DNA of 64,000 nt. Origin: Arctopsyche grandis (Eukaryota > Arthropoda > Insecta > Trichoptera > Hydropsychidae). The notes under the pieces were generated by a model. It saw nothing but the letters and a program-made list of their open reading frames with translations, was not told the origin of the DNA and made no database searches. The position numbers and the translations under genes are program-made. The stretch is from positions 36,563,691 to 36,627,690 of the forward strand of contig NC_135357.1 in NCBI RefSeq assembly GCF_051622035.1. The letters are read 5' to 3'. Positions 15,159-62,815 of this stretch are shown here, piece by piece. Each line of letters starts with the position of its first letter. The stretch's first letter is position 1.

Positions 15159-16301
15159 ATGGACATGCTCGTGGAGTTTGTGTCAAACGTCAAAAACACG
15201 AAGGAAAACATTAAAACCCAAATTAGCCTAGTAAGCAGATTAGTGACAAGCCTAGCCGAGGAAGAGCAGAAAAAGAATAAAATCAACAAAACTGCATCTA
15301 AAGCTTCCGACGCGAGCACGGCGACAGAGACGACAGAGAAAAACACTCAGACCGAGACCGAAGAGTGGAAGACCCAACGGAAACAGCAGCGGAAGCAAAA
15401 GTGGAAGCCCCAGAAGCCGCTACAGAAGCAACAGGAACAGGAGCAAGCGCAACAGGAAGAAAAACAGCAGCAGCGCCCACAGCCGTATCCACAGCCGCAG
15501 ACGCAGCAGCAACGACAACAACAAAACAAGGTCCAGCAGAAAAAACCCAAACTGACTATACCGCGCCCAAAAACCGAAGCGATAACACTGAAGCGAAGCG
15601 AAAGTAATAACAACACGTACGCGGATATTCTCAAAAAAATAAGAACCACCGTAGACATCGCTGCAACTGGATGCCAGGTGGACCGCATCAGAAAAACCCG
15701 GAACGGTATGATCCTAATGGAACTGGAAAGGAACGGCGGCAACCCCACAACGCTAGCAGACGCCATTAAAACAGCACTAGGTGACGACACAACGGTCAGG
15801 AGATTAACGACGATGGTGAAGATAGAGGTGCGGGACCTGGATGAAGGAGAAGAGCGCCAAGATGTGATGGACGCCCTCAAACCAGTACTGGGAACGCTTA
15901 CAGTCGAGGAGGCTGAAGTGGTCAGCCTATTCAACACTTACAACGGAACAAGAGTCGCAGTTGTAAAGATGGCAAGCGACAAAGCACGTACAATCCTAAA
16001 AAAAGGTAAACTTCGCGTAGGATGGGTAAACTGCCGCGTACGACAGCACATAGAAGCGGTCCGCTGTTACAAGTGCCAGGAGTACGGACACTTGGCAGCC
16101 ACCTGCAGCGGAAGTGACAGGTCCCAACTGTGTCGCCGATGTGGTAAAGGAGGCCACATAGCGGCCAAATGCGAGAACAGTCTGTGCTGCATTGTCTGCA
16201 AAGACCGCGGCACGGACACACAGCACATGGCAGGGACACCCAAGTGTCCTGCATACAAAACCGAACTGGAGAGACAGAGGAAGGGGAAGACACAAACATA
16301 A
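15159..16301 (+). CDS. LINE-B ORF1, Gag-like RNA-binding protein, about 380 aa
   Basis: ATG at 15159 is preferred over an upstream GTG at 15153. The N-terminal 130 residues are charged and low complexity, with long Lys/Gln/Glu stretches. A central region (about 150-290) precedes three zinc knuckles: CYKCQEYGHLAATC, CRRCGKGGHIAAKC, and a third atypical CIVC…H…C. This is the usual ORF1 layout of R1/SART/TRAS-type elements. The stop TAA at 16299-16301 shares its last A with the ORF2 ATG, forming TAATG. Confidence 0.9.
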   Translation: MDMLVEFVSNVKNTKENIKTQISLVSRLVTSLAEEEQKKNKINKTASKASDASTATETTEKNTQTETEEWKTQRKQQRKQKWKPQKPLQKQQEQEQAQQEEKQQQRPQPYPQPQTQQQRQQQNKVQQKKPKLTIPRPKTEAITLKRSESNNNTYADILKKIRTTVDIAATGCQVDRIRKTRNGMILMELERNGGNPTTLADAIKTALGDDTTVRRLTTMVKIEVRDLDEGEERQDVMDALKPVLGTLTVEEAEVVSLFNTYNGTRVAVVKMASDKARTILKKGKLRVGWVNCRVRQHIEAVRCYKCQEYGHLAATCSGSDRSQLCRRCGKGGHIAAKCENSLCCIVCKDRGTDTQHMAGTPKCPAYKTELERQRKGKTQT

Positions 16302-19300
16302 TGGCTGCAAATGGAAAAATAAGAGTCCTCCAGGTAAACCTTAACCATTGCAGGGCTGCGCAGGACCTCCTCCTGCAGACCATCTATGAGAAAAAAATTG
16401 ACATCACAATAATAAGCGAACAACATCGCCCATTAAATGGAGATTGGTTCGCCGACACAACCCAGCGCTCGGCGATCTACATCTCACGCGGAAGCGGGAT
16501 AATCACAGAGGCAGGAACACCACAGGTAGGTGCAGTCTGGGTTCGGGTGCGGGGCGTGCGGTTCTACAGCTGTTACTGTTCGCCGAACGCCTCGGTCTCG
16601 GACTTCGTACTGTTTTTGCACGAATTGGAGGCGAGCGTCAGCAGGAGCACAGGACGAGTGGTCGTTGCCGGAGACTTCAATGCAAAGTCTACAGAGTGGG
16701 AATCACCTATCACCGATGAGCGCGGTCGCCTACTAGCTGACACAATGGCCAGACTAAACCTGCATGTCCTGAACACCGGAAGTGCAAATACCTTCGTCAG
16801 AGGAAGCACTGGCTCCATAGTCGACGTCGCTTTCGCGGACGAGGACACCATTGGCCGCATTACCAACTGGGAGGTGCTCAGCGACACAACACTAAGCGAC
16901 CACCAATACATCTCATACGAGCTAAGAGACACAAGAACGACCGATTCGACCCCGCATAAGACCGAGCCGACAAGGTGGGCCGTCGGCAAGCTAGACACTA
17001 AAACGTGCGAAGAGACGCTCAAGTTCGAGTGTGGCCGTATTCAAGATACCACAACTGGAACAGAACTTTGCAAAGAGACAACGGCAGCGATCACTCGGGC
17101 TTGCGAGGCCTCGATGCCGAAGAAGGGTGGAGTGGGACGGAAACCACAATATTGGTGGAACGACGAAATTGCAGAGCTGCGAAGAACCTGCACAAGAAAA
17201 CGAAGAGAGCACTGTCGGACTGAACGAAGACACAGATCAGGCCACGAAGACGACCAAACGGCCATCGAAACCGCAAGCGAAGCCCACAAAGAAGCAAGAA
17301 GAGCAGTCACCTACGCAATCAGGAGGAGTAAAAAGTTGATGTGGGAACAACTCATAGCGACGGTGGACCTGGACCCATGGGGCCAAGCGTATCGTATGGT
17401 CCGTGGTAAGCTGTCCGGCCACCGCCAAATTCCCTTCTTAAACAGAGATGGAAATTTGGAAACGATAGTTTCACACCTTTTCCCTACACACAAAGAGACG
17501 ACACCACAAGCGTGGATCATAGAGCCCGAAGACATCCCAGAGTTTACACTGGGTGAACTATACTCGGCAACAAAACGGCTGTCCACTGACAAATCACCTG
17601 GACCTGACGGAATACCGAATGAAATTCTCCGCATATCGGCTAAAGTCTGCCCGAAAACATTGCTGCGGACATTCAACAGCTGCCTCAAGAGCGGAGAATT
17701 CCCAAAAATATGGAAAAGGCAGAAACTCGTGCTCATACCCAAGGGCAACAAACCACCGGAGGAGCCGTCGTCATACCGGCCACTGTGCATGTTGGACGGA
17801 TTGGGCAAACTCCTCGAGCGCCTCATATTACAGAGAGTAGCGAAGACGACGGAGACGGAAGGCGGGTTATGTTCGCAGCAATACGGGTTCAGACCCGGTC
17901 GGTCCACGGTAGACGCAATAGCCGAGGTCATAAAGACAATAAAAGACGCTCATAGTGGAACATTAAAAACGAGCAGTCACTGCATAATGGTGACACTGGA
18001 CGTTAAAAATGCTTTCAATTCTGCCAGATGGGATAAAATAATGTCGGCTCTATCGGAGCTCGGTGGAATACCAGACTACCTTGTAAGAATAATAGGAAGT
18101 TACCTGTCGGAGAGGGTTCTGATCACAAGACTGGCAGAACGCAAGATCTCCTCTGGTGTTCCACAGGGCTCTGTCATGGGACCAACATTATGGAACATAA
18201 TGTACGACTCACTTCTTAAATTAAGACTTCCAGGAGGAGCGAAGCTGGTGGGTTTTGCAGACGACGTAGCTATCATTGTTGTGGCTAGGAAAATAACGGA
18301 CCTCGAGACCGCCACAAACGACACTCTCGACCTGGTGAACGACTGGATGACGGAAGCCGGACTACAGCTTGCACCACAAAAAACCGAGGCGGTTTTGTTC
18401 ACCAGAAAAAGAAAAATCGAACCCCCGAAAATCACCATTTCGGGATACGACGTGAGACTAAAAAGGTATTTGACTTATCTTGGAATAATTCTAGATGACA
18501 AATTAACCTTTAAGAAACAAGCTGAGCATGCCGCGGAGAAAGCGGCAAGAGCTGTCAACAACATCGGACGACTAATGCCCAACATCGGAGGGCCCAAACC
18601 ATGCCGAAGAAAACTACTCAACAGCGTAGTGCACTCGGTGATCCTATACGGTGCACCAATATGGGCGCCCAGCATGGCAGTGGAGAGAACCAGGAAATAC
18701 CTCGCAAGAGTACAACGCAGGGGCGTACTGAGAATCGTATCGGCATATACAACAGTATCCGAGTGCGCAGTACTGGTTATTGCTGGAGTACCACCCATCG
18801 ACCTACTGGCACATGAAAGAAAGAAGGTATACGAGGGAAGAAAGGAGGGAACGAAAAAAGTAAGAGCGACGGCACGGGCGGAGCTCATGACGGAATGGCA
18901 GGTCCGCTGGGACGGCGCAGACAAAGGTAGATGGACACATCGACTGATCCCATCAATCGCAGCCTGGACAAGGAGGAAAAGCGCAAAACCGGACTACCAC
19001 ACAACCCAGCTACTAACCAGCCATGGGTGTTTCGGAGCATTCCTCAACCGCATCGGAAAGGAAACGACAGCAGGATGTCACCACTGTGCATCAATCAGAG
19101 ATGACGCAGAACATACACTCCTCGTATGCCCTGCATGGGAATCTGAAAGAGCGACACTCGAAGAAAGCACCCCGGTCAACACTGAAGACATAGCACAGAA
19201 CATCACTAAAGACGTAGCCTCTTGGGAAGCATTCGCAGAGTTCGCAAGGAGCGTCATGAAGCAGAAGGAGGAGGCCGAACGGCTAAGGAAAGCGGAAAGA

Positions 19301-57870: not shown

Positions 57871-58248
57871 AAATAATGAATCATTACCATCATCATCGCT
57901 AATTAAAGATCTAGGAGTTATTTTTGACGAAAAATTAACTTTTAATTGTCATATAAATTTTATCACAAAAAATGCCATCAAAACACTTGGTTTCTTAATA
58001 AGAAATAGTACTCACTTCAAAAATGTAAATACGATTAAAATTTTATACACCACTCTGGTTAGAAACCAATTAGAGTACAATTCTACCATTTGGTCTCCTT
58101 ATTTAATGAAACAAATTAACATAATAGAGTCAGTGCAAATAAAGTTCATTAGATTCATCAAATTTAAATTTTTTAAAAGTCATAATCATTATGTCAGTGA
58201 CGTTATTATTTATAGGAAACTTAATTTGCTAAAATTATATGACAGAAG
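57871..58248 (+). pseudogene. LINE-C, segment 2: RT thumb region
   Basis: The LINE-C frame resumes after Gypsy-3 (LIKDLGVIFDEKLTFNCHINF, TLVRNQLEYNSTIWSPYL) and runs to YDR, where LINE-D is inserted. Confidence 0.88.
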
Positions 58249-58377
58249 TTGGGTTCTTGTCGTGATCGTGTACAGACGTTGATTACGTGTGTGGCGATTT
58301 GGGCAACGAAATTGTAACAATTAAAAAATTAAAAATAAATTTGTAATATATAATTATGTGTACGTTCTAAGTGTATA

Positions 58378-59460
58378 ATGATGGCATCAGAACGCATAAG
58401 TGAAGTAATAACAATTGAAAAAAAAATTATGGACATTTTGACCACAAAAACTAACAGTATATCAAACGACAATAAGTCATTTTTAATTACATCAGTAAAA
58501 AAATTAGTTGAATATATTTGTGAAAATGAAAATAATGATAAGGAACAATTTTTGGATGTAATATGTGAATTAAGAAGTGAATTTAAAAATTTGAAAAACA
58601 ATATACAAAAAGACATAAATATACTAAAAACTAACAGTGAATTAAACATTTTAAAAAGTGTAAATAAAAATGATAACAATTTAAGTTATGCAAATGCACT
58701 TAAAAAAAATAATAATGACGTAACAATAATTGTTCCGAAAAAAATTCAAGATACGGACAAAACAAAAAATGAGTGCAAAAATTTAATAAAACCAAAGGAA
58801 CTAAAAATAGGAATACAAGGGGTTAAAAAAATCGGTAAAGGGGGCATTGCTGTAACGTGTAACAGTGCACAGGATAGTATTAAATTAATAAAAGAAGTAG
58901 AAAATAAATTAGGGGAGAATTATAATGTTAAAAGAGGGGAATTAAAAAATCCCAAAATTAAAATTGTAGATATGTCGGAGGAACTTACAAGTGAACAGTT
59001 GGCTGAGTGTTTGATGAATCAAAATCAAGAAGTTATAAATGATGGTGAACTGAAGGTGTTAAAAATATGGAAAAGTAGAAAAAATAATAAATATAATGCG
59101 ATAGTGGAAGTAGATTGCAATACATTTAAAAGATTTATTGAAGATGGAAAAGTAAATATAAATTGGGATAGATGTAGGGTTTTTGAAGAAATTAATATTC
59201 TAAGATGTCTAAATTGTTACGGATTTAATCACAAAGCGGTGGATTGTAGAAACAAGGTGACATGTGCGAAATGTGGAGAAGAAGGGCACAAAAGCGAGGG
59301 ATGTAACAATAAAATAATAAAATGTAATAATTGCTTTAAAAGTAATAATAAATTAAAATTAAATTTGAACACAAATCACGGACCGTTGGACACTAAGTGC
59401 AGTGTATATAAAAGAAATATAGAATTAATGAGAAATAGAATTAAGTATAATAATATATAG
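58378..59460 (+). CDS. LINE-D ORF1, 360 aa, Gag-like
   Basis: The N-terminal 110 residues are helical and charged (ITTKTNSISNDNKSF, then LRSEFKNLKNNIQKDINIL), a likely coiled coil. A central RRM-like part (GKGGIAVTCNSAQDSIKLI, IKIVDMSEELTSEQLAECL) precedes zinc knuckles CLNCYGFNHKAVDC and CAKCGEEGHKSEGC, then a third CNNC…H…C. The protein should bind element RNA. It ends at UAG 59458-59460, with CAACCA next; the frame continues without another stop into ORF2. Confidence 0.92.
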   Translation: MMASERISEVITIEKKIMDILTTKTNSISNDNKSFLITSVKKLVEYICENENNDKEQFLDVICELRSEFKNLKNNIQKDINILKTNSELNILKSVNKNDNNLSYANALKKNNNDVTIIVPKKIQDTDKTKNECKNLIKPKELKIGIQGVKKIGKGGIAVTCNSAQDSIKLIKEVENKLGENYNVKRGELKNPKIKIVDMSEELTSEQLAECLMNQNQEVINDGELKVLKIWKSRKNNKYNAIVEVDCNTFKRFIEDGKVNINWDRCRVFEEINILRCLNCYGFNHKAVDCRNKVTCAKCGEEGHKSEGCNNKIIKCNNCFKSNNKLKLNLNTNHGPLDTKCSVYKRNIELMRNRIKYNNI

Positions 59461-59466
59461 CAACCA
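59458..59466 (+). promoter_or_regulatory. Candidate stop-codon readthrough site UAG-CAA-CCA
   Basis: The ORF1 stop UAG is followed by CAACCA, an exact fit to the CARYYA context that promotes readthrough in tobamoviruses and some cellular genes. The downstream frame is the endonuclease-RT frame and has no AUG until well inside the endonuclease. Confidence 0.7.
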
Positions 59467-62289
59467 CCAAAAGGTATCGGTATAAATGTACAAAGTTTTT
59501 TTGCTCACAAGGATGAGGTTTGGAGTTTAACTGTAAGTCAAAAACCATTATTTATAGGTTTAAGTGAAACGCATGTAACTAGTGATTTTGAAGATTTTGA
59601 GCTGAATATAGATGGATATTGTGTTTTGAGATGTGACTCTAATTCTAGACATACGGGTGGGGTACTATTGTATTTAAGGGATGATTTAAGTTACGGTAAT
59701 GTAATAGTTAATAAGGTTGATGGTGAGTTTTGGACAATTGGTGTGGATCTGCTTGTGAATGGAGTTACTGTGTTTTTGCTAGTAATTTACCGCTCTCCGA
59801 ATGGTAGAAGTGGAAGATTTCTTAAATTTTTAGAAGAATTGAGTGAAAGAAGTATAGATGTGAGTAAAAATATAATTATGTTTGGGGACTGGAATTTTAA
59901 TTGGTTACAGACAGAAGAATTTTATGTAAAAAAGTTGAGAAATTGGGTAAATGAATTGGGTTTTAAACAAAAAGTGACGGAAGCAACGAGAGTGAATAAT
60001 TTATCAAGCTCTCTCATTGATTTGGTTATAACAAATATAATGGATCTGCGGTGTGAGGTGAAAGATGTACCGAAAATAGGAGACCATTCTATTGTCAACA
60101 TGTTTTTGGGACAGCGGTTTAGTAACGGAGGACTTAAAAATATACAGGTGACTGAAAGAGAAAACATTGATTATCAATTGATGAATGAATTGTTAAAGGA
60201 GTGTGTATGGGGAAAGGATGGTGATAGTGTGAATGAAATGTGGGAGATAATGTATCGTAATATAACATATTCTAAAAGTAAATGCGTAAAAACCACAAGA
60301 ATCATGCATAAGCATAAGCTGAAACCTTGGTTTACCAAGGAAGTAAAGGAAAGCTTAGTTGATAAGAATGTTAGTTATAAAAGATATAAAATTATTAAGG
60401 CTATGGATGGAATCCAATTAGAAAAGGCTTGGTTAGAGTATAAAAGAAAGAGGAATAAATGTGTGAATGTTTTACGTAATGCGAAGAGGGATTGGCATGA
60501 AAGAAATATTGATGGTGCAAAAAAAGATCCCACAAAAATGTGGCGAATAATTAAAACTTTGATTTCCGGGGGAAAAAATGTTTCTTTGAATGAATTAGAA
60601 GTCGAGGGAGTAGTATATAATGATAAAGAGGATATGGTTGAAAGATTGAATGAGTTTTACATCAATAGTGTGAATGATATAGTTAATTCAATACAAATAA
60701 GGCATAATAGTGTGAATGATGATATTAATTTGGGTTTAAATAAGTTTGAAAGGTTTAAATTAGTGGAAATGGGGGGATTAAATGGTGTATTGAAGGGCAT
60801 GAAATCAGTTTCTAGTATGGATGGATTGACTCTAGATATTTTAATCAACACTTGGGACATGGTTGGACCTCAGTTACTGAAATTAATAAATGAATCGTTA
60901 GAAGTGGGATCCGTCCCGGATGCATGGAAGGTGTCTACTATTGTACCGGTACCAAAGGTTACTGGCACACATAAAGCCAGTGAAATGAGGCCCATCAATA
61001 TGTTACCAATTGTTGAGAAGATGCTGGAGGAAATCGTTATGATTCAATTGAAAGAGTTCATTAGTATAAATGATTGTTTGGTTGTGGAACAGTCTGGATT
61101 TAGAGTGAAACATTCAACAGAAACCGCTATCCAGTTGGTGGTTTCTGATTGGATGGAGACGATGGATGAATCTAGCATGGTTGTTGGAGCAGTTTTTCTA
61201 GATTTTAAGCGAGCGTTCGAGACAGTAGATAGGAATATTTTATTACAAAAATTATATAAGTTAGGAATAAATGGTATAGTATTAAAGTGGCTTCAATCAT
61301 ACTTAAATAATAGAAGGCAAAGAGTAAAAATTGATAAGGTGTTATCCTCTGAATTTGTAACACCTCATGGAGTGCCGCAAGGGTCCAAATTGGGACCCTT
61401 ATTATTTATATTATATATAAACGATATTGTTAAGGTAATTAAGATGTGTAAAATACATTTGTTTGCAGATGATACATTGATATATATAATTGGAAAGAAT
61501 GTTGATGTAATGTCTGAGATTTTAAATATAGAATTAAATTATGTGAATGACTGGTTGTGTGAAAATAAATTAAAGTTGAATGTGAATAAAACAAAAATGA
61601 TGTGGTTGAATGGTAAAAATAAAAATATATTGAATGAAATTAGAATTGATGATAAGTTAATTGAAAAAGTTGAAAATATAAAATACTTAGGTGTATACAT
61701 AGATTCAGGACTAAATTTTAAAATGCACGCTGACTATATAATAAAAAAAATGGCTAGAAAAGTTGGTGTATTATGTAGATTAAGAAATATTTTAAGTAAA
61801 AAAAGTAAAATTTTAGTGTTTAATTCAATTGTCTTGCCACATGTGGTTTATTGTGCCACTGTGCTTAATTTGTTTAGTGGCCAAGATTTAGAAAAAATGC
61901 AAAAAATACAGAATAAAGCTATGAGAGCTATTTTGAATGTGAGTAGATTTAAGAGTATTGGAAGTATGTTAGATGAATTAGGATGGATGAGTATTAGAAT
62001 TAGTCTAAATATTAGTACATTGTCTTTTGTTTATAAGTTAGATCATAAGTTATTACCTAAGTATTTTGATGATTATATAATAAGGAATAGAGATAAACAT
62101 AGTTTTTATACTAGAAATAAGGACAAACTAGTTGTAAGTAGAGTAAGAAAGAATAAGACGGCTGGGGGTGTTTTTCACAGGGGTGTGCTCATGTATAATG
62201 CCCTCCCTGAGTGCGTCAGGTCTGCTAAAAACATGGATGCATTCCTGCGAGGTGCAAAGAGACACCTCTGTGAGGGACAGTACATATAA
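59461..62289 (+). CDS. LINE-D ORF2: endonuclease-reverse transcriptase, 942 codons after the UAG
   Basis: The endonuclease begins within about ten codons of the UAG (INVQSFFAHKDEVWSL, GLSETHV) and continues with TGGVLLYLRDDL, IMFGDWNFNWL and IGDHSIVNMF. RT motifs are PINMLPIVEKMLEEI, QSGFRVKHSTETAIQ, VFLDFKRAFETVDR, GVPQGSKLGPLLF and the active site FADDTLIY; the C-terminal part has LPHVVYCATVLNLFSG. No AUG occurs in frame until about 59878, inside the catalytic domain, so initiation at an internal AUG would give a defective enzyme. Translation is best explained as an ORF1-ORF2 readthrough product. Confidence 0.92.
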   Translation, partial: QPPKGIGINVQSFFAHKDEVWSLTVSQKPLFIGLSETHVTSDFEDFELNIDGYCVLRCDSNSRHTGGVLLYLRDDLSYGNVIVNKVDGEFWTIGVDLLVNGVTVFLLVIYRSPNGRSGRFLKFLEELSERSIDVSKNIIMFGDWNFNWLQTEEFYVKKLRNWVNELGFKQKVTEATRVNNLSSSLIDLVITNIMDLRCEVKDVPKIGDHSIVNMFLGQRFSNGGLKNIQVTERENIDYQLMNELLKECVWGKDGDSVNEMWEIMYRNITYSKSKCVKTTRIMHKHKLKPWFTKEVKESLVDKNVSYKRYKIIKAMDGIQLEKAWLEYKRKRNKCVNVLRNAKRDWHERNIDGAKKDPTKMWRIIKTLISGGKNVSLNELEVEGVVYNDKEDMVERLNEFYINSVNDIVNSIQIRHNSVNDDINLGLNKFERFKLVEMGGLNGVLKGMKSVSSMDGLTLDILINTWDMVGPQLLKLINESLEVGSVPDAWKVSTIVPVPKVTGTHKASEMRPINMLPIVEKMLEEIVMIQLKEFISINDCLVVEQSGFRVKHSTETAIQLVVSDWMETMDESSMVVGAVFLDFKRAFETVDRNILLQKLYKLGINGIVLKWLQSYLNNRRQRVKIDKVLSSEFVTPHGVPQGSKLGPLLFILYINDIVKVIKMCKIHLFADDTLIYIIGKNVDVMSEILNIELNYVNDWLCENKLKLNVNKTKMMWLNGKNKNILNEIRIDDKLIEKVENIKYLGVYIDSGLNFKMHADYIIKKMARKVGVLCRLRNILSKKSKILVFNSIVLPHVVYCATVLNLFSGQDLEKMQKIQNKAMRAILNVSRFKSIGSMLDELGWMSIRISLNISTLSFVYKLDHKLLPKYFDDYIIRNRDKHSFYTRNKDKLVVSRVRKNKTAGGVFHRGVLMYNALPECVRSAKNMDAFLRGAKRHLCEGQYI

Positions 62290-62385
62290 GTTAATTATAA
62301 ATTTTAGAGTTAAGTATAATAATTAAGATGTATTTTTAAATTAGCTTGATAGCTAAAATATATATAAATAAATAAATAAATAAAT

Positions 62386-62815
62386 AGAAGGAAAATTAAC
62401 GATATTTCAGTTCTGTGTGGTCTTCTTAATGGCACTATTAAATGCTCTGACTTGGTGAGTTTAGTGTGCTTCCATGTGCCGGGTAGATCAATTAGATGTA
62501 ACCATCTTTTTGATATGCCCAGGTTTACCACTAATTACTCATTGAACTCAGCTATGTTGAGACTGCACAGAGTTGGAAACGATTTGTCCATGGTCGATTT
62601 ATTCATTGTTAGTAAATATAACATGAAATCTATTTTATTTAAATATTTTTTTAATATAATGTAATTTATTTTGTAGTATATGAATGTATGTGTATTTTTC
62701 TTTTATATTTCATTTTAATTTTTTTTTTTTTTCTTTTTCTTTCTCTATTTCCAACATGTAAAATGGTCAATTTTTTCTTGACCGTAAAATAAAATAAATA
62801 AATAAATATAAAATA
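62386..62815 (+). pseudogene. LINE-C, segment 3: C-terminus, 3' UTR and tail
   Basis: After LINE-D the frame resumes (RRKINDISVLCGLLNG, FHVPGRSIRCNHLF) and ends at 62664. The 3' UTR has a GGTCAA/TTGACC hairpin (62765-62783) and ends in AAATAAATAAATAAAT-type repeats near 62815. Confidence 0.88.

Follow-up and report, generated by a model that had tools for sequence, protein, structure and literature searches.

The long interspersed nuclear element (LINE) LINE-D, located in a 64,000-nt stretch of the Arctopsyche grandis genome (NC_135357.1; hereafter the window, to whose positions all coordinates refer), very probably makes its enzyme as a fusion of its two open reading frames (ORFs), ORF1 and ORF2, by programmed readthrough of a UAG codon, in the manner of Gag/Gag-Pol. 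The conservation of the stop codon and its context is observed, and readthrough is what this conservation points to. Such readthrough is familiar mainly from viruses. The source of the small quantity of ORF2 protein that LINEs need is a standing question, usually answered by reinitiation or frame overlap. In LINE-D, normal termination at the UAG would yield the ORF1 protein, while a minority of ribosomes, influenced by the adjacent CARYYA motif, would insert an amino acid at the UAG and continue. The endonuclease-reverse transcriptase would exist solely as an extension at the C terminus of ORF1, within a fusion product of ~1,302 residues (359 + 1 + 942). Readthrough would set the ratio of ORF1 to ORF1-ORF2, as retroviruses set that of Gag to Gag-Pol, and the enzyme may be placed inside ORF1 particles. 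Readthrough by the ribosome, the residue inserted, the efficiency of the event and the role of the fusion as the working enzyme are what we infer from the sequences.

The junction has the layout that the original prediction described. ORF1, the TAG, the hexamer CAACCA and ORF2 follow one another in one common frame, interrupted only by the stop codon (Table 1). CAACCA is an exact match to CARYYA, and the chance of such a match, estimated earlier at about 1 in 500, is 1/512 with uniform base usage and 0.0013 under the base composition of the element. On both strands of the window CARYYA follows 3 of 1,281 TAGs, and TAGCARYYA is found three times over 64 kb versus 2.84 expected. Thus, TAGCARYYA as such is not rare on this scale, and its weight comes from its exact position and from the relatives of LINE-D. 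The endonuclease begins almost immediately after the stop, within the ten codons originally proposed. In the predicted structure of ORF2 residues 1-230 (mean predicted local distance difference test score, pLDDT, of 92), the first strand begins at residue 4 after the UAG. A Foldseek search with this model retrieved LINE-1 endonuclease structures as best matches (E 1.4e-14), and the Pfam endonuclease matches of ORF2 are slightly below the curated cut-offs. Asn9 is invariant in the 20 rows of alignment A5, and its aligned counterpart in the solved human LINE-1 ORF2p is the Asn of the same N-terminal motif. The first in-frame AUG is found where the prediction placed it, at about 59878, which is codon 140 of ORF2 and 131 codons past this Asn. 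An AUG start after the stop would therefore cost most of the endonuclease.

The UAG-bearing form has multiplied recently. Copies were searched in the 475.7-Mb assembly from which the window derives. A 401-nt junction query gave 143 first-look candidates, of which 40 were scored, and all 40 (window copy included) are 100% identical over the 401-nt stretch; because this identity was the criterion for picking them, they necessarily agree at the junction. When the same copies were read over up to 4.1 kb, they were 98.6-100% identical to the window copy in the aligned parts, some being truncated, and 28/40 keep an ORF1 of at least 355 aa and an ORF2 of at least 940 aa. It is this combination of identity and nearly full-length ORFs that indicates recent multiplication. 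Third positions drift while the UAG and CARYYA are kept: substitutions at codon positions 1/2/3 number 148/94/518 in ORF1 and 27/98/212 in ORF2 (outside the query stretch and summed over copies, so that an inherited change counts repeatedly). This third-position bias is a sign that both frames have been under protein-level selection while the UAG was present.

A more distant relative, L001, preserves the same arrangement. Judged by its content, this 4.6-kb contig, which was placed in a bacterial bin from soil, is a stray eukaryotic LINE; its protein identity to LINE-D is 38%. Its ORF1 ends in TAG, followed by CAACTA and an in-frame ORF2, and the junction reads TAGCAACTA, with Pro of LINE-D replaced by Leu. 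Over the stop and hexamer, L001 and the window copy are alike at 8/9 nt, versus 13/30 upstream and 11/30 downstream. No AUG precedes the endonuclease Asn position. In a tree of 29 rows, LINE-D and L001 fall in one group with 100/100 support. Of the 11 ORF1s compared with that of the window, 10 terminate at the same point to within a few residues; only the gene model P0127 does not.

For a wider search, L001 served as a query in which Gln took the place of its UAG, a choice that lets a sense codon match no worse than a stop. Of the 1,235 candidates from this search, 125 were scored, and 109 of the scored matches extend across the junction. None of the 109 lacks a TAG, and in 95 the TAG is the sole stop. 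The DNA was read for 77 of them, namely the 40 identical copies and 37 chosen as more diverged or odd, with 32 left unread; TAG is present at the junction in 77/77 and CARYYA in 75/77. Thus, no copy read has a sense codon at 59458, and an AUG-initiated ORF2 was found neither in L001 before the Asn position nor in the translated subfamily junctions. The readthrough interpretation of the original prediction is supported by these counts and by the context kept in relatives. The 37 further copies all have TAG, followed by CAACCA in 31, CAATCA in three, and CAACTA, CGACCA and CACCCA in one each. CAATCA is found in the older subfamilies represented by L107 (90% DNA identity) and by L102 and L118 (83-85%), where Pro is replaced by Ser and the motif is kept; L102 and L118 have a longer linker before the endonuclease. 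The 16 scored matches that start after the junction were all fetched. TAGCARYYA is present in 11 of the 16 (all TAGCAACCA), and the other five are truncated. TAGCAACCA is also found before the endonuclease in the L079 family (70% DNA identity over 368 aligned bases), where no ORF1 is recognizable. A second stop-free query, the fused protein P0003, had exactly one TAG in each of 43/43 scored matches (12,355 candidates); these are LINE-D copies, many of them shared with the L001-query set.

A different leaky context is found in a second group of LINEs, which is separate from LINE-D and L001 in the tree. In four coral-like LINEs (L010, L012, L013 and L139), ORF1 and ORF2 lie in one frame separated by UGA, and no AUG precedes the endonuclease Asn in any of the four. 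They were found in Poribacteria bins labelled Plut, a label that we take to stand for the coral Porites lutea. L010, L012 and L013, which are 39-50% identical to each other, have UGA-CUA at the junction. Passages of PMC11166343 distinguish classes of leaky stops, among them type I, which is UAG-CARYYA, and type II, in which CGG or CUA goes with UGA. We consider it likely that readthrough is widespread and long-lived in two distant animal LINE groups, the clade that contains LINE-D and L001 using UAG-CARYYA and the coral-type elements using UGA-CUA. ORF1 and ORF2 would act in these groups as Gag and Gag-Pol, and fresh copies would record leaky stop contexts.

As far as checked, leaky contexts appear to occur where ORF1 and ORF2 share a frame. 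In a neighboring LINE of the window, the ORF1 stop and the ORF2 start overlap as TAATG (16299-16303), which is the termination-reinitiation arrangement of the SART1 type. In L011 and L015, ORF2 is out of frame and an AUG precedes the endonuclease. From 150 scored matches, 19 control loci of other LINE families of the same genome were hand-picked for differing frame lengths; the stop that precedes the presumed ORF2 is part of neither TAG-CARYYA nor TGA-CTA in any of them (0/19). Fourteen of the 19, from five families, have another frame open for at least 150 codons, which was assigned to ORF1 solely by its location. L129-L133, the remaining five, make weak controls, being shorter, truncated or misread. 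A further arrangement was seen in L119, L123 and L126, which belong to other LINE families of the same genome. There, ORF2 is in the +1 frame, overlaps the upstream frame by 62-104 nt and has no AUG before the endonuclease motif, making these elements candidates for ribosomal frameshifting.

Several observations weigh against readthrough in LINE-D and its relatives. Many LINE-D copies are too young for their agreement to mean much, and the weight is therefore on a few older lineages. The two copies without CARYYA (CGACCA and CACCCA) both carry extra stops, L092, the CAACTA copy, is a decayed LINE-D copy with further stops, and L102 and L118 are likewise decayed, with extra stops. The C/T exchanges in the hexamer remain within Y. 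In L001 the endonuclease Asn is replaced by His, and this copy may therefore be inactive. P0003 (metagenomic, 46% identity) runs as a single frame from the ORF1 tail into ORF2, as its source gives the protein; thus, either some members of the clade lack the stop or the gene caller of P0003 read through one. Among the coral-like LINEs, L139 reads UGA-CUC. L008 and L009 (UGA-CAAACC) are ambiguous and were left out of the core argument, because their Met codons 38-39 stand directly before the endonuclease Asn. Finally, the 100 nt 3' of the LINE-D stop fold no better than shuffled sequences (z 0.26; pseudoknots are outside this folding), and comparison of RNA folding with shuffles gave no support for a readthrough-stimulating structure 3' of the stop at six junctions. 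The argument thus rests on about five CARYYA lineages (LINE-D, L107, L102/L118, L079 and L001) and three with UGA-CUA, which are not all independent and some of which come only from decayed copies.

Among other explanations, termination-reinitiation or internal initiation, in which a restart at a downstream AUG or near-cognate codon gives a separate ORF2 protein, is improbable but fares best. Passages of PMC5972666 describe reinitiation for LINEs, in SART1 with UAAUG and in mammalian L1. The TAATG overlap of the neighboring LINE shows the same layout within the window, and LINE-D has the near-cognate codons ATC and ATA at ORF2 codons 6 and 8. However, its first AUG lies past Asn9, and restarting leaves both the shared frame and the retention of CARYYA unexplained. 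Protein predictions argue in the same direction. Of 182 proteins from the protein database, 171 ORF2-type proteins were entered in a tally and 11 ORF1 proteins left out (one listing being the best 120 of 221). The Asn position is covered by 85; another 69 start past it but still inside the endonuclease, 15 start further on and two are special. Thus, 69 of the 154 informative predictions start only after the Asn. The first residue of some predictions is L or V, which suggests that their gene callers accepted non-ATG starts, and the choices of gene callers or contig ends may explain part of the late starts.

A-to-I editing of the RNA could convert the UAG into a Trp codon and give the fusion without readthrough, as occurs in hepatitis delta virus. 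Both UAG and UGA are one A-to-I step from UGG, and the product would be the same. Editing gives no reason, however, for CARYYA after the UAG or CUA after the UGA, and the folding result (z 0.26) shows no local structure beyond that of shuffles, so we regard this route as quite unlikely. We judge equally poor the chances of ribosome bypassing, which passages of PMC5009743 consider for LINEs, or of splicing that removes the stop: the ORFs already abut in one frame, and the linker varies in sequence and length while the stop and the motif persist. A single nonsense mutation in the fused ORF of one copy, for which the single frame of P0003 could be cited, is already contradicted and practically ruled out by the TAG in all copies read and all spanning matches, by the ORF1 ends of the relatives and by the TAG of L001.

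LINE-D itself is a full-length insertion with the hallmarks of LINEs, namely endonuclease and reverse transcriptase in ORF2, a target-site duplication and a simple-repeat 3' tail (Table 1). It split an older LINE fragment (57901-58248 and 62386-62665), and joining the flanks with a single AGAAG restores a 206-codon frame of that fragment, i.e. the empty site is in frame. The original prediction started ORF1 at 58378. The second ATG (58381) is the start in 28/40 fetched copies, and the extra Met is unique to the window copy. The Pfam search gave no CCHC match in LINE-D ORF1, and the two knuckles were found by eye in alignment A4; in the relative P0126, the same kind of search identified a PHD domain. 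An ORF1 with CCHC knuckles, and in some elements a PHD, is the trait considered for assigning an element to a clade of the Jockey superfamily (CR1, L2, Daphne, Crack, Jockey and others). Several LINE-D matches with nearly the same score are spaced 20-60 kb apart on C2 (39.20-39.34 Mb), C23 and C24, which resembles segmental duplication rather than separate insertions.

Table 1. Coordinates of LINE-D, its parts and its target site in the window
Feature	Position	Strand	Basis or remark
Full-length LINE copy LINE-D, 4,137 bp	58249..62385	+	Insertion boundaries; alignment of 40 genomic copies, the window copy among them
5' copy of target-site duplication AGAAG	58244..58248	.	Joined flanks restore older LINE frame
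3' copy of target-site duplication AGAAG	62386..62390	.	AGAAG on both sides
ORF1, 359 aa + stop	58381..59460	+	Extra ATG at 58378 in window copy
Two CCHC zinc knuckles of ORF1 (C-x2-C-x4-H-x4-C twice)	59206..59304	+	Invariant columns, alignment A4
UAG stop between ORF1 and ORF2	59458..59460	+	TAG in 77/77 copies read
CAACCA, matching CARYYA (type I readthrough context)	59461..59466	+	Definition in passages of PMC11166343
ORF2, 942 aa + stop	59461..62289	+	No internal stops; no in-frame AUG before codon 140
APE-type endonuclease domain	59461..60123	+	Model residues 1-230; first strand residues 4-9; Asn9 codon 59485-59487
First in-frame ATG of ORF2, codon 140, inside endonuclease	59878..59880	+	Reading of frame
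Reverse transcriptase domain (RVT_1)	60976..61701	+	Pfam E 4.4e-33
3' untranslated region with terminal (AAAT)n tail	62290..62385	+	Sequence reading

Stray contigs with eukaryotic-type LINEs occur in bacterial and archaeal GTDB genome bins (L001-L016). Among these 16 loci, L002-L007, L014 and L016 were not used for the junction because they have no readable ORF1-ORF2 junction, are single ORFs or are decayed. No relatives were found in viral contigs with the ORF2 protein, alignment A1 or the coral alignment A3, nor in a first scan of genome contigs, and searches of phage and plasmid collections turned up nothing closer than distant reverse transcriptases. In an Alicyclobacillus plasmid record, an unannotated region (L017, NZ_CP104070.1 17190-24476) matches the LINE-D reverse transcriptase with E 4e-15, which is better than the group II intron reverse transcriptases listed from other plasmids.

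If the proposed readthrough is correct, LINE-D offers a clean test case, being a recently amplified element whose enzyme is seemingly reachable only through a UAG in a leaky context of viral type. The fusion, the ORF1 to ORF2 ratio and the effect on jumping would be measurable in a reporter through changes of three to nine bases. Gene finders that stop at UAG or UGA, or that begin ORF2 at the first start codon, may miss the start of the endonuclease, as in the 69 of 154 informative predictions, part of which contig ends may explain.

An ORF1-UAG-ORF2 readthrough context in an animal LINE is apparently undescribed. In open-licence PubMed Central text we found no animal LINE with this stop context, an earlier mention in Repbase notes or subscription papers being possible, and the passages available from a survey of 448 Jockey-superfamily ORF1s (PMC4120745) do not treat the ORF1-ORF2 readthrough context. 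For animals, the text searched agrees with the original statement that no established LINE family is known to use this context. Readthrough in LINEs is not wholly without precedent. It was suggested for group 3 LINEs of Paramecium, in which, as in LINE-D, ORF1 and ORF2 lie in one frame; these elements are from a ciliate, and the passages of PMC5405496 that describe them give neither CARYYA nor a copy-level test. LINEs of the SART1 type share with LINE-D the presence of ORF1 and ORF2 on one RNA. However, their AUG overlaps the stop, whereas LINE-D, with both ORFs in one frame, has no UAAUG and no AUG near the stop. Gammaretroviruses are unrelated elements, but their Gag-Pol is alike in having UAG between structural and enzyme ORFs in one frame. 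According to passages of PMC11166343, signals of the murine leukemia virus type combine a purine-rich octanucleotide with a compact pseudoknot. The bases after the LINE-D UAG are CAACCACC, which differ from this type III pattern; LINE-D instead has CARYYA, and no unusual structure was found. Type II readthrough, known from UGA-CUA in OPRL1, AQP4 and MAPK10, is not a feature of LINE-D itself and has its likeness at the ORF1-ORF2 junction of three of the four coral-like LINEs, where a retroelement, and not a gene or virus, carries the signal. Passages of PMC4132726 report about 15% readthrough in human cells when CARYYA was placed after the UGA stop of OPRL1. With type I readthrough (UAG-CAR-YYA, the tobacco mosaic virus type), LINE-D shares the UAG stop, the position of the motif directly 3' of it, all six bases and an open in-frame extension of 942 aa without an early AUG, and it differs in being a LINE with many chromosomal copies rather than a plant RNA virus.

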